Shown here one piece after another: positions 34,344-44,709 of a DNA stretch of 64,000 bases. Under the pieces are notes generated by a model. The model did not search any database, was not told the origin of the DNA, and saw only the letters and a list, made by a program, of their open reading frames with translations. The translations under genes and the position numbers were made by a program. The DNA lies in the NCBI GenBank assembly GCA_009781635.1, contig WQXU01000004.1, positions 1 through 64,000 of the forward strand, written 5' to 3'. Source of the stretch: Treponema sp. Its GTDB lineage: Bacteria; Spirochaetota; Spirochaetia; Treponematales; Breznakiellaceae. Position 1 is the first letter of the stretch. Every line of letters starts with the position of its first letter.

Positions 34344-34406
34344 TATAGAAAAAGTATTTTAACAAATATTTAGATCCAAAAATCTTGATATGTTATGGAG
34401 AAAATA

Positions 34407-34985
34407 ATGGAAATGAAAAATGATGTAGAAGCAGCGCCAAAAAAACGCACTTTTATCCAGCAGGAGAAAAAAGGGCTTCAAATACAGGATATACTGCTTA
34501 TAAGCATACTTTTGGCTTCAGGGGCAGTGCTAAAGTTTTTTGTCCCCAACCTTGGGGGGATGAAACCTAATTTTATAATCGCCATGTACTGCCTTACCAT
34601 CCTGCTTATAAAACCCCGTCTTTTTGAAGCTGCAATAATAGGGATACTTGCAGGCGCAATCAGTCAAATATTTCCCGCCCAGCCCTATATCAACTTTATA
34701 AGCGAACTTATTGGAGCGCTTGTTATGTGTCTTTTAATAAAAATCCCAATGGAAAAAATAAAAATTCCTGTAAAACCTATTATAAGTACTTTTTTAAGCA
34801 CTTTGGCAAGCGGTTTTACTTTTATCGGTGTTATGTATCTGTTATACTACGTACGGCCCAATATGCTTAATGTAGCGCCTGCTGCGCTTGCTGTATTTAT
34901 GGGTGTCGTCTTCGGCACTGCCACAATTAACTCGATAATCGTTCAGGTACTCTATATTCCATTAAAGCTGGCATTAAAAAAATGA
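34407..34985 (+). CDS. trpP: ECF transporter substrate-binding (S) component, TrpP-like
   Basis: A 192-residue membrane protein with about six helices. The middle shows Asn-Leu-Gly-Gly-Met-Lys-Pro-Asn-Phe, followed by a Gly/Ala-rich helix and an Ala-Thr-Ile-Asn-Ser-Ile region near the C terminus, which I recall as features of the TrpP (YhaG) tryptophan S-component family. The start at 34407 is chosen because GGAG lies six bases upstream; ATG 34395 has no ribosome-binding site. The following three genes supply the ATPases and the T protein, and a tryptophan T-box operon comes next, so tryptophan (or a precursor such as indole) is the likely substrate. The substrate is an inference from family recall plus context. 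Confidence 0.78.
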   Translation: MEMKNDVEAAPKKRTFIQQEKKGLQIQDILLISILLASGAVLKFFVPNLGGMKPNFIIAMYCLTILLIKPRLFEAAIIGILAGAISQIFPAQPYINFISELIGALVMCLLIKIPMEKIKIPVKPIISTFLSTLASGFTFIGVMYLLYYVRPNMLNVAPAALAVFMGVVFGTATINSIIVQVLYIPLKLALKK

Positions 34986-35842
34986 TAGAAATCCGGGGCT
35001 TGAGTTTCCTTTATACCGGCGGAAACAAGAACGCTCTTTCTGATATTAATCTTTCAATTGCAGAAGGGGAGTTTTTAGGTATCATAGGTTCCTCAGGCGC
35101 CGGAAAATCAACGTTGACTTATGCAATTAACGGAGTAATTCCCCATCATTTTAGCGGCGATTTTTACGGTGAAATTAGGGTAAACGGCATTGATACTCTG
35201 GAGTCCGGCATCGATACCCTTGCAAGACATGTCGGCAGCGTCTTCCAGGATATTGACGGTCAGATGGTCGCCCAGGTGGTTGAAGATGAAATCCTCTTTG
35301 GCATGGAAAATTTCGGAGTCCCCCATGATGAAATCGAGGGCCGTCTTGAAGATGCTTTGAGCGCAGCGGGTATAAAGAGCCTTAGGTACCGTGAAATGAG
35401 CTCACTCTCCGGCGGGCAGAAACAAAAGGCTGCGATTGCCGCAGTTATTGCGCTGCGCCCCCGCATTCTTGTACTGGATGAACCAACAGGAGAACTTGAT
35501 CCTCAAAGCAGCCGCAAAATTTTTGAATGCCTGAGAGAACTTAACGAGAAACACGGAATTACAATAATAGTTATAGAACAAAAAATTATGCTTCTGTGCG
35601 AGTTTGCAAAGCGCCTTGCCGTTATGAATAGCGGCCGTCTTGTTTGTGAAGGAACCGTGAAGGATGTGCTTCAAAAACCCAACCTTCTTGAAGATGCAGG
35701 CGTTAATATTCCGCGTGTCACTACTCTTGGCAACATGCTAAAGCAAAAGGGTTTATATTCCGGCATGCTTCCCAGAGATTTAAATGAAGCGCAGATTATG
35801 GTGCAGGAACTTATAAATAAAAATGGAGCAGCCAATGCTTAA
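34982..35842 (+). CDS. ecfA1: ECF transporter ATPase, first subunit
   Basis: One of two ATP-binding subunits powering the S/T membrane complex. In 286 residues it shows Walker A Gly-Ser-Ser-Gly-Ala-Gly-Lys-Ser-Thr (about 37-45), a Q-loop in Val-Phe-Gln-Asp-Ile-Asp-Gly-Gln, the ABC signature Leu-Ser-Gly-Gly-Gln-Lys-Gln-Lys, and Walker B Leu-Val-Leu-Asp-Glu-Pro-Thr-Gly-Glu-Leu-Asp-Pro. It overlaps the S component gene by ATGA. About 55 extra C-terminal residues follow the ATPase domain. ECF ATPases of this kind form heterodimers with the next gene product. Confidence 0.9.
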   Translation: MIEIRGLSFLYTGGNKNALSDINLSIAEGEFLGIIGSSGAGKSTLTYAINGVIPHHFSGDFYGEIRVNGIDTLESGIDTLARHVGSVFQDIDGQMVAQVVEDEILFGMENFGVPHDEIEGRLEDALSAAGIKSLRYREMSSLSGGQKQKAAIAAVIALRPRILVLDEPTGELDPQSSRKIFECLRELNEKHGITIIVIEQKIMLLCEFAKRLAVMNSGRLVCEGTVKDVLQKPNLLEDAGVNIPRVTTLGNMLKQKGLYSGMLPRDLNEAQIMVQELINKNGAANA

Positions 35843-36731
35843 GTTTGAAAAAGCAGGCTTTAGCTACCAAAGCCAAAAGCCGCGCAGGGGAAACAAAGCT
35901 ATTGACAGCGGCTCTGTATTAAAAGATATATCCTTTGAAATAAATCCAGGAGAGTTTATCGTTCTTCTTGGAGAGAACGGAGCGGGTAAATCCACTCTGT
36001 GTAAACTTGCAAACGGCCTTTTAAAACCTACAACAGGGAGAGTTCTTGTCGCAGGCGAAGATACAAGAACTATAAAAGTAAGCCGTATTGCAAGAAAGAC
36101 AGGTTTTCTTTTTCAGAACCCCGACAGACAGCTCTGCCGGAATACTGTCCGCGAAGAAATCCTCTTTGGCCTTGAATTTGCGCTTTCAGGAATTACATCC
36201 GGGGCAAAATCAAAGGCGCAGGCATCAGAAGAACTGGAACAGGAAAAAAAACGCCGCTGCCAGGAAATGCTGGACCTTTTCAGGCTGGACGGAGACCGCG
36301 ATCCCTTTGGACTTTCAAGAGGAGAACGCCAGCAGTGCGCGCTTGCCACTGTTCTTGCAAGGCGGCCGGAACTTCTCATCCTTGATGAACCCACTACAGG
36401 ACTTGATTACCGCGAATGCGTAACCATCATGGATATAATAGTCAAATTAAATTCATCAGAGAGCACTACAGTGTTTATGATTACGCATGATATGGAAGTT
36501 GCCGCTGATTTTGGAAAGCGCGCTCTTGTTTTAAGCGACGGACAGCTTATAGGAGACGGGCCTGTACGGGAAATTCTTAAAAATAAACCCCTGCTCGATC
36601 GCGCTTCCCTGCTCCCTCCCCAGATAGCATCCCTTGCTCTGCGAATGAACGAAAAATGTTTTGACAATGTTTTTTCGTTAGACGAAATGAGCGCCGCTTT
36701 GGAAAAAAATGTATCAGGAAAAGCAATATGA
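35835..36731 (+). CDS. ecfA2: ECF transporter ATPase, second subunit
   Basis: The partner ATPase, 298 residues from the ATG at 35835, which has GGAG seven bases upstream and overlaps the first ATPase gene by eight bases; ATG 35823 would add four residues. Walker A is Gly-Glu-Asn-Gly-Ala-Gly-Lys-Ser-Thr, Walker B Leu-Ile-Leu-Asp-Glu-Pro-Thr-Thr-Gly-Leu-Asp-Tyr, with a switch His in Met-Ile-Thr-His-Asp. The ABC signature is diverged, Leu-Ser-Arg-Gly-Glu-Arg-Gln-Gln instead of Leu-Ser-Gly-Gly-Gln, and an insertion of some 20 charged residues precedes it. ATGA overlap with the next gene. Confidence 0.9.
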   Translation: MLKFEKAGFSYQSQKPRRGNKAIDSGSVLKDISFEINPGEFIVLLGENGAGKSTLCKLANGLLKPTTGRVLVAGEDTRTIKVSRIARKTGFLFQNPDRQLCRNTVREEILFGLEFALSGITSGAKSKAQASEELEQEKKRRCQEMLDLFRLDGDRDPFGLSRGERQQCALATVLARRPELLILDEPTTGLDYRECVTIMDIIVKLNSSESTTVFMITHDMEVAADFGKRALVLSDGQLIGDGPVREILKNKPLLDRASLLPPQIASLALRMNEKCFDNVFSLDEMSAALEKNVSGKAI

Positions 36732-37495
36732 GCGGTTTATTAAATTATGCAGCAGGGAACTCCTTCCTTCATCGTCTTAATCCCACAGTTAAGCTCTTTT
36801 GCGCATTTTTTCTCTGCGCAAGCTGCTTTATAACAGGAAAAATTTCCTTTGCGCTTCTTATAATTTTATTTAATCTTTGCCTCTCTCTTGCATCCGGATG
36901 GGTTATTTTCGGACGGGCTGTCAAAATACTTTTTTCTCTGATGAAACTGTCGGTTGTGCTTTTTTTAATTCAGATCCTTTTTATCCGTGAAGGTGAAATT
37001 CTTTTTATTATTTTAAACAGTATTATTATTACAAAAGAAGGCCTTGATTTTTCTCTTCTCTTTGTCCTTCGCCTTATTGCCGCAACAATGCCTCTTAGCC
37101 TTGTCCTTTCGATAACAAGGATGAGTGATATTTCAGCTTCCCTCACCCGTACTTTCGGAATTCCCTACAAATATGCCTTTGCCCTGACAAGCGCCATGCG
37201 TTTTATTCCGCTTTTTTCCACTGAAATGGCCGGAATAAAAGAGACTCAAATGGCGCGCGGCATAGAACTGGATACAAAAAACTTTTTCAAAAAGATAAAA
37301 CTTTTCCTTCCGCTTTGCGCGCCTTTATTAATTTCTTCGGTACGCAAAATTGAAGGCGGCGCCATTTCCGCTGAACTTAGGGGTTTTAATTTCCGCACGC
37401 GAAAAAGCGGCTGGAAAAAATACCCTTTTACTTTTGCAGATTTTCTTGCGCTTGCTCTTTGTATTTCTATAATTGTGTTATCAGTATTTTATTGA
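36728..37495 (+). CDS. ecfT: ECF transporter transmembrane (T) component
   Basis: Scaffold subunit joining the ATPases to the S component. The 255 residues include about six hydrophobic helices and, after the fourth, the coupling-helix motifs Gln-Met-Ala-Arg-Gly-Ile-Glu and Ala-Glu-Leu-Arg-Gly-Phe-Asn, which correspond to the two Ala-Arg-Gly motifs of EcfT. The last codons overlap a 14-bp palindrome. A full S-A-A-T operon means this transporter carries its own energising module rather than sharing one. Confidence 0.9.
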   Translation: MSGLLNYAAGNSFLHRLNPTVKLFCAFFLCASCFITGKISFALLIILFNLCLSLASGWVIFGRAVKILFSLMKLSVVLFLIQILFIREGEILFIILNSIIITKEGLDFSLLFVLRLIAATMPLSLVLSITRMSDISASLTRTFGIPYKYAFALTSAMRFIPLFSTEMAGIKETQMARGIELDTKNFFKKIKLFLPLCAPLLISSVRKIEGGAISAELRGFNFRTRKSGWKKYPFTFADFLALALCISIIVLSVFY

Positions 37496-37529: not shown

Positions 37530-37559
37530 TTGACAATAATATACCTGTTGTTTTATACT
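37530..37559 (+). promoter_or_regulatory. Promoter of the trp operon
   Basis: Consensus TTGACA (37530-37535) and TATACT (37554-37559) are separated by 18 bases. Predicted transcription start is near 37566, just before stem I of the T-box. Confidence 0.75.
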
Positions 37560-37570
37560 GCTTTAAACCG

Positions 37571-37837
37571 TTGAGACGGAGGTAGGCAATTACGCGCCAT
37601 ACAGAGAGTCCGGGAAGCTGAGAGCCGGGCAGGAAACGCGGATTACCGCTTGGGGCCGTCGAGGGCATGGAACAAAGAGGAAAACCTTGAGTATTCCATG
37701 ACGGGCAGGCATACGTAAGTTGCCGGGAGTATGATAGTACTCTGCAAAGCGCACGGGCAGCCGTGAATCAGGGTGGTACCGCGGATATTGTATTATTCGT
37801 CCCTGGCAAAGCTATGTCTTTGTCAGGGATTTTTTTT
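37571..37837 (+). ncRNA. Tryptophan T-box riboswitch leader
   Basis: A tRNA-sensing leader RNA of about 265 bases. The invariant T-box AGGGTGGTACCGCG is at 37770-37783, containing the UGGU that pairs with the tRNA acceptor end. Stem I closes with GACGG (37575-37579) and CCGTC (37656-37660); inside it GGTA/TACC (37581-37584/37644-37647) leaves a 3'-side loop, 37648-37655, holding the specifier TGG (37651-37653), a tryptophan codon. The distal part has the typical AGAGAG and GCTGAGAG motifs. A stem II (CATGGAA 37666-37672 with TTCCATG 37694-37700) and a CACGG/CCGTG stem before the T-box follow. Uncharged tRNA-Trp is expected to stabilise the antiterminator and switch on trpB onward. Confidence 0.93.
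37800..37837 (+). terminator. T-box-controlled intrinsic terminator
   Basis: A 12-bp stem (TCCCTGGCAAAG, 37800-37811, with CTTTGTCAGGGA, 37818-37829, one G-U pair), a six-base loop and eight T bases (37830-37837). It stands between the T-box sequence and trpB, so it is the regulated attenuator. Confidence 0.93.
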
Positions 37838-37865: not shown

Positions 37866-39050
37866 ATGTCAGACGGAAGGTTCGGGATTTACGGCGGTCA
37901 GTATATCCCTGAAACATTGATGAGCGCAGTTTTGGAATTATCACAGATATACAACCGTTGGAAAAGTGATCCTGATTTTATAAACGAGTTTAACAGTCTG
38001 CTAAAAAAATACGCAGGAAGACCTTCTCTTCTTTACCATGCGCAGAAAATGACTCATGATCTGGGCGGGGCAAAGATATATCTTAAACGCGAGGATCTAA
38101 ACCACACAGGCTCCCACAAGATTAATAATGTTTTGGGACAGGCGCTCCTTGCCAGAAAAATGGGCAAGAACCGTTTAATCGCCGAAACCGGAGCTGGACA
38201 GCACGGAGTTGCAACTGCCACCGCCGCTGCCCTGCTTGATATGGAATGCCTGATATTCATGGGCCGCGAAGATATGCAAAGGCAGGCTCTTAATGTTTAC
38301 CGCATGGAGCTTTTGGGAGCGAAGGTAAACTGCGTTACATCAGGAACTGCTACTCTAAAAGACGCCGTTAACGCAACGATGCGTGAATGGGCAGGACGTA
38401 TAAAGGACACTCATTACTGCCTTGGATCTGTTATGGGTCCTCATCCCTTCCCTACAATGGTACGTGATTTTCAGGCTGTTATAGGACGGGAAATTAAAGA
38501 GCAGATCATGTCTTTGGAAGGCAGGCTCCCAGACTCAATCATTGCCTGCATTGGCGGAGGAAGCAATGCCATTGGTTCTTTTTATGAGTTTATAAAAGAC
38601 GAGAGCGTTGAACTTGTCGGCTGTGAAGCAGCCGGAAGAGGAATAGATACAAGGGACAATGCGGCAACTTTAACCAATGGTTCAGTTGGAGTTTTCCACG
38701 GCATGAAATCCTATTTCTGCCAGGATGAGTTCGGGCAGATTGCGCCTGTATACTCAATCTCCGCCGGCCTGGATTATCCTGGTGTCGGCCCGGAGCACGC
38801 ATACCTTTTTGACATAAAACGGGCAAGGTATGTTGCGGTTACCGATGACGATGCAGTCGGCGCGTTTGAGTACTTAACAAAGACTGAAGGAATAATACCT
38901 GCAATTGAAAGCTCTCATGCTCTTGCATATGCAATGAAATACGCGCCAACACTGGGCAGGGACAGGATCATTGTCCTTACATTATCAGGAAGAGGCGACA
39001 AAGATGTGGCCTCGATTGCCAAATACAAGGGGGCTTGCGTCAATGAATAA
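37866..39050 (+). CDS. trpB: Tryptophan synthase beta subunit
   Basis: Condenses indole with serine using pyridoxal phosphate. The ATG at 37866, with AAGGGG upstream, gives 394 residues, the family length; a longer open frame reaches back into the T-box and is not used. The PLP lysine lies in His-Thr-Gly-Ser-His-Lys-Ile-Asn-Asn, followed by [10 protein letters not shown] and the phosphate-binding Gly-Gly-Gly-Ser-Asn-Ala-Ile-Gly. It is the conventional TrpB1 type, expected to pair with TrpA, which overlaps it by eight bases. Wording of the N terminus ([13 protein letters not shown]) is like clostridial TrpB as I recall it. Confidence 0.97.
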
Positions 39051-39825
39051 AAATATCGAAAAAGCATTCCTGAATGGAAAGGCTTTTATACCTTTTATAA
39101 CAGGCGGCGATCCTGATCTTGAAACAACAGAAAAAGTTTTGTACTCACTTTATGAAGCCGGAGCGGATATGATCGAGATAGGGGTGCCATTCTCAGACCC
39201 GGTTGCAGAAGGGCCTGTAATTGAAGAAGCGGACAAACGCGCTCTTGAAGCAGGCTGCACAGTTGATAAATTGTTTGATCTTGTGGACAGAGTCCGCCCC
39301 TATATAAAAGTTCCTCTTTTGTTTATGACTTATTACAATCCGGTCTTTGCATACGGAATACAAAAGTTTACAGACAGATGTAAAAGCTGCGATCTTAACG
39401 GCCTTATTGTACCTGATTTGCCCTTTGAAGAGCGGGATGAACTTTTAAAACCCTGTATGTCGCGCGGCATTGAACTGATCTCTCTAATCGCTCCTACTTC
39501 CGAAGAGCGGATTAAAAATATAGCGGAAAACTCAAGAGGTTTTCTTTACTGTGTCTCTTCGTTAGGTGTAACAGGAGAAAGGAGCGAACTTGGAAATGAT
39601 GCCCGCAAAATGGTGGAACAGGCAAAAAGGTTTTCCGGCATTCCCTGCGCGGTCGGCTTCGGCGTCTCTACACATGAGCAGGCCAAAGAGATCGCAGAGT
39701 TTGCAGACGGCGTTATTATAGGCAGCGCTATTGTTAGAATCATAGCCAGACACGGAAGGGGCTGCATACAAGAGGTTTCGCAGTTCGCAAAAAAAATAAA
39801 ACAGGCTTTAAGTCAAGGAGAATAA
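39043..39825 (+). CDS. trpA: Tryptophan synthase alpha subunit
   Basis: Cleaves indole-3-glycerol phosphate to indole, which is channelled to TrpB. The start at 39043 (Met-Asn-Lys-Asn-Ile-Glu) overlaps trpB by eight bases and gives the normal length of 260 residues; an earlier in-frame ATG lies inside trpB. Phe-Ile-Thr-Gly-Gly-Asp-Pro-Asp is at 18-25, and the catalytic Glu of Met-Ile-Glu-Ile-Gly-Val-Pro-Phe is Glu45. At the position of the second catalytic residue (Asp60 of E. coli) the motif reads Ser-Asp-Pro-Val-Ala-Glu-Gly-Pro, with Glu56 replacing Asp; this variant is, to my recollection, common in Firmicutes. Confidence 0.96.
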
Positions 39826-39829
39826 AAAA

Positions 39830-40843
39830 ATGGTTTTTATAATGAACCCTGATGTTACAAGGGAGCAGATTAATACATTTATTTCCGGCTGGGAGAATAA
39901 AGGTTTTTCCACCATTTTAAGCGTCGGAACCGAGCATACCGCTGTTTGTTTAATCGGCAATACGGCGGCTGTGGATTTGGATCATGTCGTGCAGACAAGC
40001 GGTGTTGTTTTATACGGCAAACGAATTACAGAACGTTATAAGGCAGTTAACAGGGTTGTCCACGAGGATAATACCATTGTAAGGACAGGGGACATCTGCA
40101 TTGGAGAAGGGTATTTTACTGTGATAGCAGGGCCATGTTCTGTGGAAAGCGAAGATCAGATAATTCAAATTGCAAAAAGTGTAAAAACAAGCGGTGCCAG
40201 AATCCTTCGCGGAGGAGCCTTCAAGCCAAGGACATCGCCTTATGATTTTCAGGGCAAAAAGGCAGAAGGACTTGAAATGCTTTCAGCGGCAAAAAAAGAG
40301 ACCGGCCTTCCCATTGTTACGGAAATCATGAATCAGACGCAGATTGATTTATTTGAAGATGTAGACATTGTGCAGGTAGGAGCGAGGAACATGCAGAACT
40401 TTGATTTACTAAAGGCGCTTGGCAGCCTGAAAAAGCCGGTATTGCTTAAAAGAGGCCCTGCCAACACAATTGATGAACTGCTTATGAGCGCCGAATATAT
40501 CGTATCATCCGGAAATGACAATGTCATATTATGCGAACGGGGCATCCGTTCCTTTGAAACGATGACGCGTAACACACTGGATTTATCGGCAGTTGTTCTT
40601 CTTAAGCAAAAATCGCATTTGCCTGTAATCGCCGATCCAAGCCACGCCTCAGGGATTCGCAGCCTTGTGCCGCCTTTGGCAAAAGCCATTCTGGCAGTCG
40701 GCGCGGACGGCTTAATGGTAGAAGCACATAACAATCCGGCGGCGGCTCTCTGCGACGGCGCTCAATCCCTTGATTTGGATCAGTTTGATACGCTAATGAG
40801 GGATTTAAAAAACCGCGCTCAGACAGAAGGAAAAATAATATGA
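39830..40843 (+). CDS. aroF: 3-deoxy-7-phosphoheptulonate (DAHP) synthase, AroA/Kdo8P-like type
   Basis: First enzyme of the shikimate pathway, condensing PEP and erythrose 4-phosphate. The 337 residues begin with a ~70-residue ferredoxin-like regulatory domain and continue with a barrel of type I-beta: Ile-Ala-Gly-Pro-Cys-Ser-Val-Glu near 103, Leu-Arg-Gly-Gly-Ala-Phe-Lys-Pro-Arg-Thr-Ser-Pro-Tyr, Gln-Val-Gly-Ala-Arg-Asn-Met-Gln-Asn and Asp-Pro-Ser-His-Ala-Ser-Gly. AAGGAG lies nine bases before the ATG at 39830. Being within the trp operon, it would supply chorismate under tryptophan control. Its ATGA overlap couples it to trpE. Confidence 0.94.
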   Translation: MVFIMNPDVTREQINTFISGWENKGFSTILSVGTEHTAVCLIGNTAAVDLDHVVQTSGVVLYGKRITERYKAVNRVVHEDNTIVRTGDICIGEGYFTVIAGPCSVESEDQIIQIAKSVKTSGARILRGGAFKPRTSPYDFQGKKAEGLEMLSAAKKETGLPIVTEIMNQTQIDLFEDVDIVQVGARNMQNFDLLKALGSLKKPVLLKRGPANTIDELLMSAEYIVSSGNDNVILCERGIRSFETMTRNTLDLSAVVLLKQKSHLPVIADPSHASGIRSLVPPLAKAILAVGADGLMVEAHNNPAAALCDGAQSLDLDQFDTLMRDLKNRAQTEGKII

Positions 40844-42276
40844 TAAAACCATCTTTGGAAGAAATAAAAAAAGTTTCTAAAGGGTATAAAGTATCCCCTT
40901 TAGCGCTGGAAATTTTCTCCGACCAGAAAACTCCAATAGAAGTATTAAAGAACTTAAGAATAAAAAGCGATATGTGGTTCATTCTGGAAAGTGTAAACAG
41001 CGGCAGCAGCTGGGGAAGATATACATTCTTGGGATACAAGCCTGTTCTGAGCGTTTACGGAAAAGGAAAAAATACTAAAGTAAACGGAGAGGATACAGAA
41101 AAAGACGCTCTTTATGTAATAAGAGAATGGATGTCGCATTACAAAAGCCCTTCCTTTCCGTATCTGCCCCCGTTTACAGGCGGATTTGCAGGATATTTTT
41201 CCTATGACTTTGTAGAAAATTTCATTGCGGATCTGGAATTGAAAGCAAGAGACGAAGATGGTTTCAGGGATTTTCATTTAATGCTAATAGATAAAGTGAT
41301 TGCCTTTGACAATTTTAAACAGAAAATTTTTATAATCGTAAATATTCCTGTTGAAAATCTGGAAGACAATTACATTAAAGGTATTACAGAACTTAAAGAC
41401 ATTGAAAGACTAATATTGGGAAATGCATCAGGTGATGAACAGTCTTTTTGCGGTGAGTTTACATCACGTTTTTCCAAAGACTCTTTCAAAGACATGGTTG
41501 AAAACATAAAAACGCATATTGCAAACAGGGAAATTCTCCAGGCTGTCGTTTCCAACCGTTTTAAAGCTCCCTTCAGGGGCAGTCTTATGAATGTGTACCG
41601 CCTTTTGCGTACAATAAACCCCTCACCTTATATGGTTTATATGCGTCTTGACGATATAGAAATTGCCTGCTCATCCCCTGAAACTCTTGTGTCTGTGCAA
41701 AATGGGGAAATAAACTCCTTCCCTCTTGCCGGGACCTGCCCCCGCGGAAAGACTGAAGAAGAGGATGCGGCATTTATTAATGCTCTTTTAAAAGATGAAA
41801 AGGAACTTAATGAGCATGAAATGCTTGTTGAGCTTGCCCGCGAAGACATAGGGCGCATAAGCCGCAGCGGCAGCGTAAGTGTGCGCGGCTACAGAAAAAT
41901 CAAGAAATTTTCCCATGTCAGCCATATATCTTCCAATATTACAGGCCGCCTGCAGGAAGGCCTTGATTCACTTGATGTTATTGCATCTACTCTCCCTGCA
42001 GGAACTCTTTCCGGCTCTCCCAAAAAACGCGCCTGTGAAATTATTGATAAATATGAAGGCGTAAAACGCGGAGTATACGGCGGAGCCATCGGTTATATCG
42101 ACTTTACAGGGAACATGGACATGTGCATTGGGATTCGCATGGCGGTATTAAAGGACAATCATGTAACTGTTCAGGCCGGAGCCGGGATTGTTTTGGAGAG
42201 CGTAGCTGAAAAAGAATATCATGAAACCTGCAACAAGGCGCAGGCTCTTATGCAGGCATTAATAAATTCCAATTAG
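40840..42276 (+). CDS. trpE: Anthranilate synthase component I
   Basis: Converts chorismate to anthranilate. The 478-residue protein has the N-terminal allosteric region with Phe-Ile-Leu-Glu-Ser-Val near 47, equivalent to the tryptophan-binding Leu-Leu-Glu-Ser motif, and a chorismate-binding domain with Pro-Ser-Pro-Tyr-Met-Val-Tyr, Leu-Ala-Gly-Thr-Cys-Pro-Arg-Gly, Thr-Leu-Pro-Ala-Gly-Thr-Leu-Ser-Gly-Ser-Pro-Lys and Gly-Gly-Ala-Ile-Gly-Tyr. It lacks a fused glutaminase and no trpG follows; the amidotransferase must come from elsewhere (for example a shared PabA) or free ammonia must be used. PabB is the alternative name, but operon context favours TrpE. Confidence 0.94.
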   Translation: MIKPSLEEIKKVSKGYKVSPLALEIFSDQKTPIEVLKNLRIKSDMWFILESVNSGSSWGRYTFLGYKPVLSVYGKGKNTKVNGEDTEKDALYVIREWMSHYKSPSFPYLPPFTGGFAGYFSYDFVENFIADLELKARDEDGFRDFHLMLIDKVIAFDNFKQKIFIIVNIPVENLEDNYIKGITELKDIERLILGNASGDEQSFCGEFTSRFSKDSFKDMVENIKTHIANREILQAVVSNRFKAPFRGSLMNVYRLLRTINPSPYMVYMRLDDIEIACSSPETLVSVQNGEINSFPLAGTCPRGKTEEEDAAFINALLKDEKELNEHEMLVELAREDIGRISRSGSVSVRGYRKIKKFSHVSHISSNITGRLQEGLDSLDVIASTLPAGTLSGSPKKRACEIIDKYEGVKRGVYGGAIGYIDFTGNMDMCIGIRMAVLKDNHVTVQAGAGIVLESVAEKEYHETCNKAQALMQALINSN

Positions 42277-42290
42277 TAAGGATATAAAAA

Positions 42291-43301
42291 ATGATCAGAG
42301 AAGCAATTTTATCCCTTTCCAAAAGGGAGGATCTTTCTTACGAGAAGGCGAAGGCTGTAATGGACGAGATTATGAGCGGACTTGCAACGCCTGTTCAGAT
42401 GAGCGCCTATCTTACAGCTTTAAGTTTGAAAGGCGAAACCATAAACGAGATTACAGGTTCCGCTTTCGGGATGCGTTCTCACTGCATTCGTCTCCTGCAT
42501 GATGCCGATGCGCTTGAGATTGTCGGCACCGGAGGAGATCATGCCAATACATTTAATATATCCACAACAGCGGCGATTATCACGGCGGCGGCTGGCATCC
42601 CTGTAGCAAAACACGGCAACCGCAGCGCATCAAGTAAATGCGGGTCCGCCGATGTACTGGAAGCCCTGGGCATCAATATCGGCATCCCTCCTGAAAAAAG
42701 CGCCGGATTGCTTGCGAATATAGGAATATGTTTTATGTTCGCGCAGAATTATCACATCGCGATGAAATTTGTATCTCCAATCCGGCGCGAACTTGGTATA
42801 AGGACTGTTTTTAATATTATAGGACCTCTTACCAATCCTGCAGGAGCGAAGATGGAATTGATGGGCGTTTACGAACGTGAGCTTGTGGAGCCTTTAGCGC
42901 AGGTTTTATGCAATCTGGGAGTAAAAAGCGCCATGGTTGTTCACGGAGATGACGGTCTTGATGAAATTTCACTTTGCGCGCCTACTTTTGTATGCGAAGT
43001 AAGAAACGGATGGGTGCGTTCATACACAATCACGCCGGAACAGTTCGGGTTTAAGCGCTGCGATAAAAAAGAGCTGCAGGGCGGTCCGCCGTCTGAAAAC
43101 GCAGGGATTCTTAAGGCCTTATTGAGCGGACAAAGGGGCGCCAAAAGAGATGCTGCATTATTAAATGCAGCGGCGGCCATGTTTGTTACGGGCAAATATG
43201 AATCGATAGAAGATGCTGTACAAATTGCAAGTGAAGTAATCGACAGCGGCAAGGCAATGAAAAAGCTGGAAGATTTTATCCGCTTTTCAAACGAGAAATG
43301 A
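42291..43301 (+). CDS. trpD: Anthranilate phosphoribosyltransferase
   Basis: Transfers phosphoribose from PRPP to anthranilate. The 336 residues include Val-Gly-Thr-Gly-Gly-Asp near 78 (PRPP loop), Phe-Asn-Ile-Ser-Thr, Lys-His-Gly-Asn-Arg-Ser-Ala-Ser-Ser-Lys-Cys-Gly-Ser-Ala-Asp and Arg-Thr-Val-Phe-Asn-Ile-Ile-Gly-Pro-Leu-Thr-Asn-Pro. There is no N-terminal glutaminase fusion, so it does not supply the missing TrpG. It starts 14 bases after trpE with AAGGA in the gap and overlaps trpC by ATGA. Confidence 0.96.
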   Translation: MIREAILSLSKREDLSYEKAKAVMDEIMSGLATPVQMSAYLTALSLKGETINEITGSAFGMRSHCIRLLHDADALEIVGTGGDHANTFNISTTAAIITAAAGIPVAKHGNRSASSKCGSADVLEALGINIGIPPEKSAGLLANIGICFMFAQNYHIAMKFVSPIRRELGIRTVFNIIGPLTNPAGAKMELMGVYERELVEPLAQVLCNLGVKSAMVVHGDDGLDEISLCAPTFVCEVRNGWVRSYTITPEQFGFKRCDKKELQGGPPSENAGILKALLSGQRGAKRDAALLNAAAAMFVTGKYESIEDAVQIASEVIDSGKAMKKLEDFIRFSNEK

Positions 43302-44089
43302 TTATGAATATTTTAAGGGAAATAGCTGAACGCACCAAAGAGCGTATATTCATGCAGAAGAAAGATCTTCCGCCTGAAAAAATTATTGAAGCTGTATTTA
43401 AAGACAGCATTACTTATGATTTTCCTTTTGAAAAAGCCATTAACAGTAAAGACATAGCTTTCATTTGTGAAATAAAAAGAGCATCCCCGTCCAAGGGGAT
43501 TATTGCCTGCAATTTTCCGTATCTTGATATTGCAAGGGATTATGAAGAAGCAGGCGCACAGGCAATCTCCGTTCTGACAGAGCCGTACTGGTTTAAAGGC
43601 AGCGACAATTACCTTCGCAGAATTGCAAACTTTGCAGGCATTCCCCTTCTTCGCAAGGATTTTATTGTTGACAGCTACATGATTTACCAGGCCCGCCTGT
43701 TAGGTGCAAGTGCTGTTCTTTTTATATGTTCCATACTGGACGGGGAAACTCTTTTTGAATACATAAATATTGCTCATAAGATTGGCCTTTCCGCCCTTGT
43801 AGAAACCCACAGCGAAGAAGAAGTATACATGGCCCTTTCTGCCGGCGCAAGGGTAATCGGTGTCAACAACCGGAACTTAAAAGACTTTAATACAGATATG
43901 TCCTTAAGCGAAAGACTGCGGAAGCTGGTGCCGCCCGGTGTGCTTTTTGTCTCGGAAAGCGGCATCAGCTCAAATTCCGATATCATCAGTTTACGCAAAA
44001 TCAAAGCCAATGCAGCGCTGATAGGAGAAGCCCTCATGCTTAAGGAAGACAAAAAAAAGGCTTTATTGCAATTGCGCGGTGAATTATGA
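43298..44089 (+). CDS. trpC: Indole-3-glycerol phosphate synthase
   Basis: Closes the indole ring from CdRP with loss of CO2. It is a stand-alone 263-residue barrel, not fused to TrpF. Family signatures: Ile-Cys-Glu-Ile-Lys-Arg-Ala-Ser-Pro-Ser-Lys-Gly near 56, Leu-Arg-Lys-Asp-Phe-Ile-Val-Asp near 117, Gly-Val-Asn-Asn-Arg-Asn-Leu near 187 and Ser-Glu-Ser-Gly-Ile. The ATG at 43298 overlaps the trpD stop; a second ATG two codons later is possible. Confidence 0.96.
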   Translation: MIMNILREIAERTKERIFMQKKDLPPEKIIEAVFKDSITYDFPFEKAINSKDIAFICEIKRASPSKGIIACNFPYLDIARDYEEAGAQAISVLTEPYWFKGSDNYLRRIANFAGIPLLRKDFIVDSYMIYQARLLGASAVLFICSILDGETLFEYINIAHKIGLSALVETHSEEEVYMALSAGARVIGVNNRNLKDFNTDMSLSERLRKLVPPGVLFVSESGISSNSDIISLRKIKANAALIGEALMLKEDKKKALLQLRGEL

Positions 44090-44709
44090 GCAGGGTAAAA
44101 ATCTGCGGTCTTATGCGCATGGAGGATATATTAGCTGTCAACAGCGCGCTTCCTGACTATATCGGCTTTGTGTTTGCTCCGGGCCGCCGCCAGATAAGCA
44201 TTGAAACAGCTTCAGTTTTAAAAAAAAATCTTGATCAAAATATTTTGGCCGTGGGCGTTTTTGTAAATCAGCAGATTGAAGTAATTTCAAATCTTTACAA
44301 TGACGGTATTATTGATATAGCGCAGCTTCACGGCGATGAAGATTCAAATTACATAAAAAGGCTGAAAACACTCTGCCCCTGTCCTGTTATTAAAGCAGTA
44401 GGAATCAAAGATTCCCTGCCGGAATATGCGCGCCATCCCCCCGCAGACTTTATTTATAATGATTATTACCTGTTTGATACCCTGTCTGCCCAACGCGGAG
44501 GAACAGGAAAAACTTTTAACTGGAGCGCCCTTAAAAACTACAAGGGGCTTCCTTTTTTCCTTGCCGGCGGGTTAAATACCGCCAACATACCCCGTGTTAT
44601 AAGCTCTCTTAATCCTTTTTGCATTGATGTATCAAGCGGCGCGGAGACGGACGGAAAAAAAGATAAATACAAGATATCTGAAATTACAGAACTTGTAAAA
44701 AACTTCTAA
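44086..44709 (+). CDS. trpF: Phosphoribosylanthranilate isomerase
   Basis: Isomerises PRA to CdRP, between TrpD and TrpC. The 207-residue barrel begins with Val-Lys-Ile-Cys-Gly-Leu (Cys7 is the likely catalytic base), contains Gly-Phe-Val-Phe-Ala-Pro-Gly-Arg-Arg and Ala-Gln-Leu-His-Gly-Asp-Glu, and ends with Ala-Gly-Gly-Leu-Asn and Ile-Asp-Val-Ser-Ser-Gly-Ala-Glu. ATGA overlap with trpC. It is the last gene of the operon; the 32 bases before the convergent truB end show no convincing terminator. Confidence 0.95.
   Translation: MSRVKICGLMRMEDILAVNSALPDYIGFVFAPGRRQISIETASVLKKNLDQNILAVGVFVNQQIEVISNLYNDGIIDIAQLHGDEDSNYIKRLKTLCPCPVIKAVGIKDSLPEYARHPPADFIYNDYYLFDTLSAQRGGTGKTFNWSALKNYKGLPFFLAGGLNTANIPRVISSLNPFCIDVSSGAETDGKKDKYKISEITELVKNF

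Follow-up and report, generated by a model that had tools for sequence, protein, structure and literature searches.

A TrpP-like energy-coupling factor transporter cassette beside a tryptophan operon of Treponema sp., tentatively read as an importer of indole-3-acetate for tryptophan supply

What is brought into the cell by a four-gene energy-coupling factor (ECF) transporter whose operon directly precedes a tryptophan-type T-box leader? The question is raised by a stretch of Treponema sp. DNA of 64,000 nucleotides (GenBank assembly GCA_009781635.1, contig WQXU01000004.1, positions 1 to 64,000; hereafter the window) from a genome of 2.77 Mb, in which the forward strand encodes a substrate (S) component, two ATPases (A1 and A2) and the T component EcfT. 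An initial annotation, made from the sequence alone, described this cassette as a self-contained ECF transporter with a TrpP-like S component. Our comparative analysis suggests that it may represent an unrecognised ECF family for indole-3-acetate, found in spirochaetes, Clostridia and Synergistaceae, labelled TrpP by the family library, and part of a tryptophan-starvation regulon that would rebuild tryptophan by reductive carboxylation; to this reading as a whole we assign a probability of about 0.4. That the cassette is a dedicated tryptophan-supply importer, serving the tryptophan pool in one way or another, is very probable.

The sole Pfam family above its cut-off for the S protein is TrpP, with a weak match (PF17099; 39.9 bits, cut-off 27.2). 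No vitamin or other S family was found in Pfam or NCBIfam even at E 0.1, and the profile comparison proposed with the initial annotation thus gave no better match to another vitamin family. To place this protein relative to the conventional tryptophan transporters, we inspected all 118 sites matching PF17099 in 398 clostridial genomes (16 of the 76 high scorers with 1.5 kb flanks only), among which no score falls between 66.5 and 90.5 bits. Among the 76 matches of at least 90 bits, A and T genes stand beside a single S gene, genes for indolepyruvate:ferredoxin oxidoreductase (IOR; iorA, iorB) or a PaaK-like ligase beside none, and a TrpB homologue near 8, in agreement with the earlier statement that tryptophan S components of Firmicutes usually borrow a shared ECF module (75 of 76 without adjacent A and T). 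Below 70 bits (42 matches), A and T adjoin S in 35 cases and ior or paaK genes in 12; the 7 without A and T comprise 2 fragments at contig ends, 3 weak matches and 2 without a recovered S. The sole high-scoring TrpP with adjacent A-A-T genes (L329, 4947-8086) has ATPases about 35% identical to those of the window.

The same division appears in the phylogeny. In a tree of 156 S proteins, 30 solitary TrpPs are split from 126 others, including the window protein, by a branch with FastTree support of 1.0; a second tree agrees for 15 solitary TrpPs (Shimodaira-Hasegawa-like approximate likelihood ratio support 100), with long branches meeting at that split. The window protein has Asn (codon 34569), Ser (34701) and Glu (34704) where the solitary TrpPs, all clostridial in this alignment, which lacks the Bacillus subtilis protein, have Asp, Asp and Lys. 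These positions are all but invariant on either side (N 100%, S/T 100% and E 99% in the cassette clade; D 97%, D/E 100% and K 100% in the solitary one), and conserved positions elsewhere differ as Gly/Thr, Gln/Ala, Pro/Gln and Cys/Phe (cassette/solitary). Judged from these comparisons, S belongs to a separate cassette clade and is no orthologue of the solitary TrpPs. The Gly-Met-Lys-Pro motif, offered previously in support of TrpP, does not carry that weight: it is common to both clades and hence not specific, and about a fifth of the cassette clade has Thr or Ser in place of the Lys. The TrpP-like label itself stands in part, being borne out by the PF17099 score and by the tryptophan T-boxes of 21 relatives (see below), while an identity with TrpP proper is not supported, given the separate clade and the fixed differences.

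How widespread is the cassette? Of 392 genomes sampled from the phylum, 20 have a PF17099 match (19 above cut-off); among 39 near relatives of the source genome, 1 has one. When the S alignment was run against 84,980 species genomes, 235 relatives were returned, found in Treponema, Synergistaceae, Clostridia, Oligosphaera and others, of which 80 were retained; a plasmid search gave one weak match. Together with 18 loci from spirochaete genomes these made up 98 loci. The set of S, A and T is complete in 86 of them, 11 more run into the end of a contig, and L062 has only S. This recurrence shows that the operon of the window is more than a chance arrangement. Four clostridial genomes encode S and the first ECF ATPase as a fusion protein of 427-491 amino acids (L235 6065-7537 and L241 5654-7129, reverse strand; L242 6011-7486 and L236 6053-7336, forward strand), with the gene order A2, T, S-A1 in L235, L241 and L242; a single S-A1 polypeptide speaks against sharing of S in these genomes.

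The first line of evidence on function comes from regulation. A mismatch-tolerant motif scan combined with Infernal located a T-box directly upstream of S in 21 cassettes, and this result overturned a provisional view, based on an exact pattern that found none, of cassettes without T-boxes. Counts by the exact pattern for high and low clostridial scorers were likewise not used as a contrast. The tests were made in batches (10 of 10, 5 of 19 and 5 of 5 positive, plus L246), with the first and third batch and 4 of the 19 preselected by motif, so that 21 of 41 distinct cassettes is not to be taken as a frequency. The L246 leader scores 99.5 bits; the other 20 are under the gathering value, with E from 2e-9 to 2e-17. 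The specifier is TGG (UGG) in all 21, in 20 of them also seen in alignments, and no Phe or Tyr specifier occurs among them; the T-boxes of three solitary TrpPs have UGG too. Cassettes of this clade in Clostridia and Synergistaceae are therefore equipped to respond to tryptophan shortage. The tolerant scan saw no such motif ahead of S in the treponeme cassettes.

The second line is the company of enzymes. Genes iorA and iorB and/or a PaaK-like ligase gene occur near 12 of the 98 loci and 12 of the 42 low-scoring clostridial matches (L095 being in both), that is near about 23 of 138 cassettes in all. IorA is above its NCBIfam cut-off, and the ligase has phenylacetate-coenzyme A (CoA) ligase as its best match, below cut-off. 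Two layouts were observed: in Clostridia the enzyme genes follow the cassette on its own strand, and in Treponema paaK is divergent and iorBA convergent; on the S tree the linkage needs 12 changes (91 judged cassettes). Three loci (L246, L067 and L113) combine both lines: a tryptophan T-box leads into a co-directional run S-A-A-T-iorA-iorB-paaK, in which neighbouring genes overlap or lie close together. A chance test of the linkage against the solitary loci alone was not significant (p 0.21; 11 long loci), and its significance rests on a rough expectation scaled to genome length (1.4 expected, 21 seen, 125 loci) and on the 118-match clostridial set.

At the genome level, a PaaK homologue (E<=1e-150 to the copy of the source genome) is present in 28 of the 392 phylum genomes, namely in all 20 genomes that match PF17099 and in 8 of the 372 that do not (Fisher 1.7e-27) and, within one genus (g12), in 15 of 15 versus 6 of 34 (3.4e-8), both values being uncorrected for kinship. 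One of the 20 genomes (G377) has a TrpP fragment below cut-off with no cassette beside it. IorA was dropped as the marker in favour of PaaK, as its search had scored just three candidates in most genomes and had missed the real iorA beside paaK in two (G338 and G226). TrpD is above cut-off in 12 of the 20 TrpP-matching spirochaete genomes, so the remaining eight may depend on uptake or salvage. The source genome carries its own iorA-iorB-paaK run on another contig (C10), its PaaK sharing 69% identity with the one linked to the cassette in L067; this run (L158 6409-11283, reverse strand) lies behind a lactate/oxalate-type carrier of the major facilitator superfamily, which might serve as an alternative porter.

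These observations can be assembled into a tentative pathway. The S component would capture an indole-type carboxylate outside the cell, most likely indole-3-acetate and possibly other arylacetates, which would be delivered through EcfT, with the asymmetric A1/A2 ATPase pair as the motor. The PaaK-like ligase, of the adenosine monophosphate (AMP)-forming type, would turn the imported acid into its CoA ester, IOR would carboxylate the ester to indolepyruvate, and transamination would yield tryptophan. For an operon induced by tryptophan starvation and containing IOR and an AMP-forming ligase the synthetic direction makes the best sense, and such an operon needs its acid. Both the ligand and the direction of the two enzymes are predicted here from gene context. 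For the ligand itself, namely that indole-3-acetate is imported and rebuilt to tryptophan, with the window copy probably serving the same end, we would put the chances slightly short of even. The replacement of the two acidic positions of solitary TrpP by Asn and Ser in the window protein is consistent with it. According to passages of PMC13285125, arylacetates are substrates of a Bacteroides AMP-forming ligase beside IOR, for which a role in making aromatic amino acids is argued.

Several points weigh against this assignment. The window cassette adjoins a complete trp operon rather than ior or paaK genes, and the Rfam scan found no T-box upstream of its S gene; many T-box cassettes have no ior or paaK beside them. 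Arylacetates can cross membranes as weak acids. The co-occurrence with PaaK, tested in spirochaetes, is confounded by relatedness, 15 of the 20 genomes being of one genus. The TrpP of B. subtilis carries tryptophan (in a passage of PMC13170310), and the IOR of B. thetaiotaomicron has been linked to phenylacetate production, as told in part of PMC13285125.

The closest competing explanation is import of L-tryptophan itself by a diverged TrpP that acquired an ECF motor, with ior and paaK merely co-regulated in a tryptophan-acquisition regulon. A PF17099 score above cut-off, a UGG T-box ahead of 21 cassettes and likewise of some solitary TrpPs, and a window cassette adjoining the trp operon would all be expected of such a transporter, and we regard it as a serious possibility, somewhat less likely than indole-3-acetate import. 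It leaves unexplained why the S proteins form a separate clade with fixed changes at conserved positions, why arylacetate enzymes are linked to about 23 of 138 cassettes versus 0 of 76 high-scoring TrpP loci, and why all 20 TrpP-matching spirochaete genomes have a ligase that a tryptophan importer does not need. Alternatively, the cassette might be a broad arylacetate importer, taking up phenylacetate, 4-hydroxyphenylacetate and indoleacetate to serve Phe, Tyr and Trp together. In its favour, IORs act on all three arylpyruvates (as stated in part of PMC13285125), and genes for prephenate dehydratase and 3-deoxy-D-arabino-heptulosonate 7-phosphate (DAHP) synthase accompany three treponeme cassettes, which are flanked by these genes on one side and by a hotdog thioesterase gene on the other (L034 4390-6254 and 10098-10496; L029; L030). 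The thioesterases encoded after these three cassettes belong to one family, and in a fourth treponeme a gene of this family separates iorB from paaK, so that the family is common to cassette and ior-paaK loci. The uniform UGG specifiers, with no Phe or Tyr codon in any of the 21 T-boxes, make this broad role unlikely. Least probable is that the cassette imports some other micronutrient, be it a vitamin or some unrelated metabolite, with only a secondary tryptophan link: the nearest solved folds to S are the vitamin S components PanT, RibU and ThiT, but the profile searches gave no vitamin S family and the tryptophan T-boxes would be hard to explain.

Turning back to the window, its features are collected in Table 1.

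Table 1. Features of the transporter operon and its downstream neighbourhood (window coordinates)
Feature	Position	Strand	Basis
S component, TrpP-like (PF17099), cassette-bound subfamily	34407..34985	+	Open reading frame, Pfam, trees, model
EcfA1-type ATPase, signature LSGGQ (canonical)	34982..35842	+	Open reading frame, Pfam/NCBIfam
EcfA2-type ATPase, signature LSRGE	35823..36731	+	Open reading frame, Pfam/NCBIfam
EcfT, ARG and LRG coupling motifs	36728..37495	+	Open reading frame, Pfam CbiQ, solved EcfT relatives
Sigma-70-like promoter TTGACA-18-TATACT, between EcfT and T-box	37530..37559	+	Consensus match only
T-box leader of trp operon, specifier UGG (Trp)	37562..37807	+	Rfam RF00230
Intrinsic terminator of T-box leader, 13 pairs	37799..37837	+	
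trpB-trpA-DAHP synthase (aroF)-trpE-trpD-trpC-trpF operon; neighbour, outside transporter	37866..44709	+	

The four same-strand reading frames overlap by 4 (S/A1), 20 (A1/A2) and 4 (A2/T) nucleotides, which together with the UGG T-box that follows confirms the earlier description of one overlapping operon directly before a trp T-box. The ATG of S is preceded by GGAG 6 nt upstream, with an alternative start at 34395. Both ATPases are ABC_tran members above the Pfam cut-off; their best NCBIfam models are ECF_ATPase_1 (A1) and ECF_ATPase_2 (A2), both under the equivalog cut-offs. EcfT matches CbiQ/EcfT (94.2 bits, cut-off 25) and, in a sequence search of solved structures, 4hzu and 4huq (E 1.9e-16). 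LSGGQ is found in 119 of 122 A1 family members and in just 7 of 121 best A2 matches, most of which have SRG or SKG. The diverged A2 signature pointed out in the initial annotation is thus real, though not peculiar to the window copy, and a defect of this copy was ruled out; the alignments suggest a pair of one canonical and one altered signature.

The S model (mean predicted local distance difference test score 85.5, six helices) aligned best in VIA-align with PanT (6zg3_C; Z 16.0, root-mean-square deviation 3.2, 174 aligned) and with 4hzu_S (Z 15.7), other helical proteins being listed at lower Z; Foldseek alone gave nothing at E<=0.001, and a sequence search of solved structures with S gave no match. 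Helix 1 has a conserved A-x-G-A, with the exact AxxxA spacing described for S components in a passage of PMC11109136 being absent (Ala38/Val42, Leu37/Ala41). The model points to an S-component fold; this fold, an EcfT with two Arg motifs, two EcfA-type ATPases and dedicated A and T genes place the cassette in group I of ECF transporters, uptake itself being predicted.

Only two CbiQ/EcfT matches above cut-off exist in the whole genome, the window copy and one on contig C8. The latter belongs to a second ECF module (L024 6384-9373, reverse strand) composed of EcfT, an S-like protein that matches riboflavin-S only below cut-off, and a fused double ATPase whose second signature, LNRAD, is degenerate. 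Since the sole other EcfT sits in a different module with its own S-like protein, the window transporter is self-contained, as originally proposed. A shared (group II) module was ruled out on the same grounds, and both modules look dedicated.

The window T-box, located downstream of the cassette and ahead of the trp genes behind its own promoter, starts 66 bases past the T gene. It scores 74.9 bits, under the gathering score of 93, yet the match is full-length (1-219, E 1.3e-15) and a terminator follows; it is thus a T-box by anatomy rather than by curated score. In the adjoining operon trpB, trpA, DAHP synthase, trpD and trpC are above NCBIfam cut-offs, and trpE and trpF are best matches under them. 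No trp genes were found in the examined flanks of the 98 related loci, so that this neighbourhood is special to the source genome within the sample. A genome of the same genus (G001) lacks the cassette yet has both the T-box and trpB (84% identical). While these two share the T-box-trpBA order, most other relatives examined have trpF or trpC ahead of trpB, and the exact T-box motif was not seen near their trp genes; this difference within a genus (window trp operon, L129 and L130-L137) suggests replacement or transfer. A rarity of the T-box as such in the lineage was ruled out: of 271 Treponematales genomes, 75 carry matches (E<=0.001), mostly a single one; the part of a 2008 T-box survey consulted (PMC2494555) lists none for 6 spirochaete genomes.

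Overall, the curated PF17099 family comes apart into two kinds that differ in motor, gene neighbourhood and conserved residues, a caution against labelling every member a tryptophan transporter, and the cassette offers a testable arylacetate uptake route in anaerobes. Arylacetates are abundant gut fermentation products, and rumen bacteria have long been observed to build aromatic amino acids from them. A passage on phenylacetate in PMC7356843 touches on this rumen synthesis. If true, the indoleacetate reading would name a missing step in it.

Group I ECF transporters and TrpP are already known; new, as far as the literature searched goes, are the cassette-bound subfamily, its tryptophan T-boxes and the link to IOR and the ligase. 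The open PubMed Central literature yielded no paper on a TrpP-like S-A-A-T cassette or on an ECF transporter for arylacetates; a 2009 ECF survey by Rodionov and others may deal with TrpP cassettes. TrpP (YhaG) of B. subtilis is an S component using the shared EcfA1A2T, in contrast to the window protein with its own EcfAAT cassette. The two have in common the Pfam family, the tryptophan connection and the positions A, G, L, G, P, M, N, T, S, G and N, and are set apart by clade and by the Asn/Ser/Glu versus Asp/Asp/Lys positions of the clostridial solitary proteins (the B. subtilis protein not being aligned). Group I transporters, such as CbiMNQO and BioMNY, likewise have dedicated co-operonic S, A and T genes, sometimes with A1 and A2 fused; the cassette differs in its TrpP-type S and, in the four clostridial genomes, in the fusion of S to the first ATPase. 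The methanogen- and Bacteroides-type pair of IOR and AMP-forming arylacetate-CoA ligase, as presented in part of PMC13285125, recurs beside many cassettes and in the source genome; what sets it apart here is the added transporter and, in three loci, a tryptophan T-box as well.

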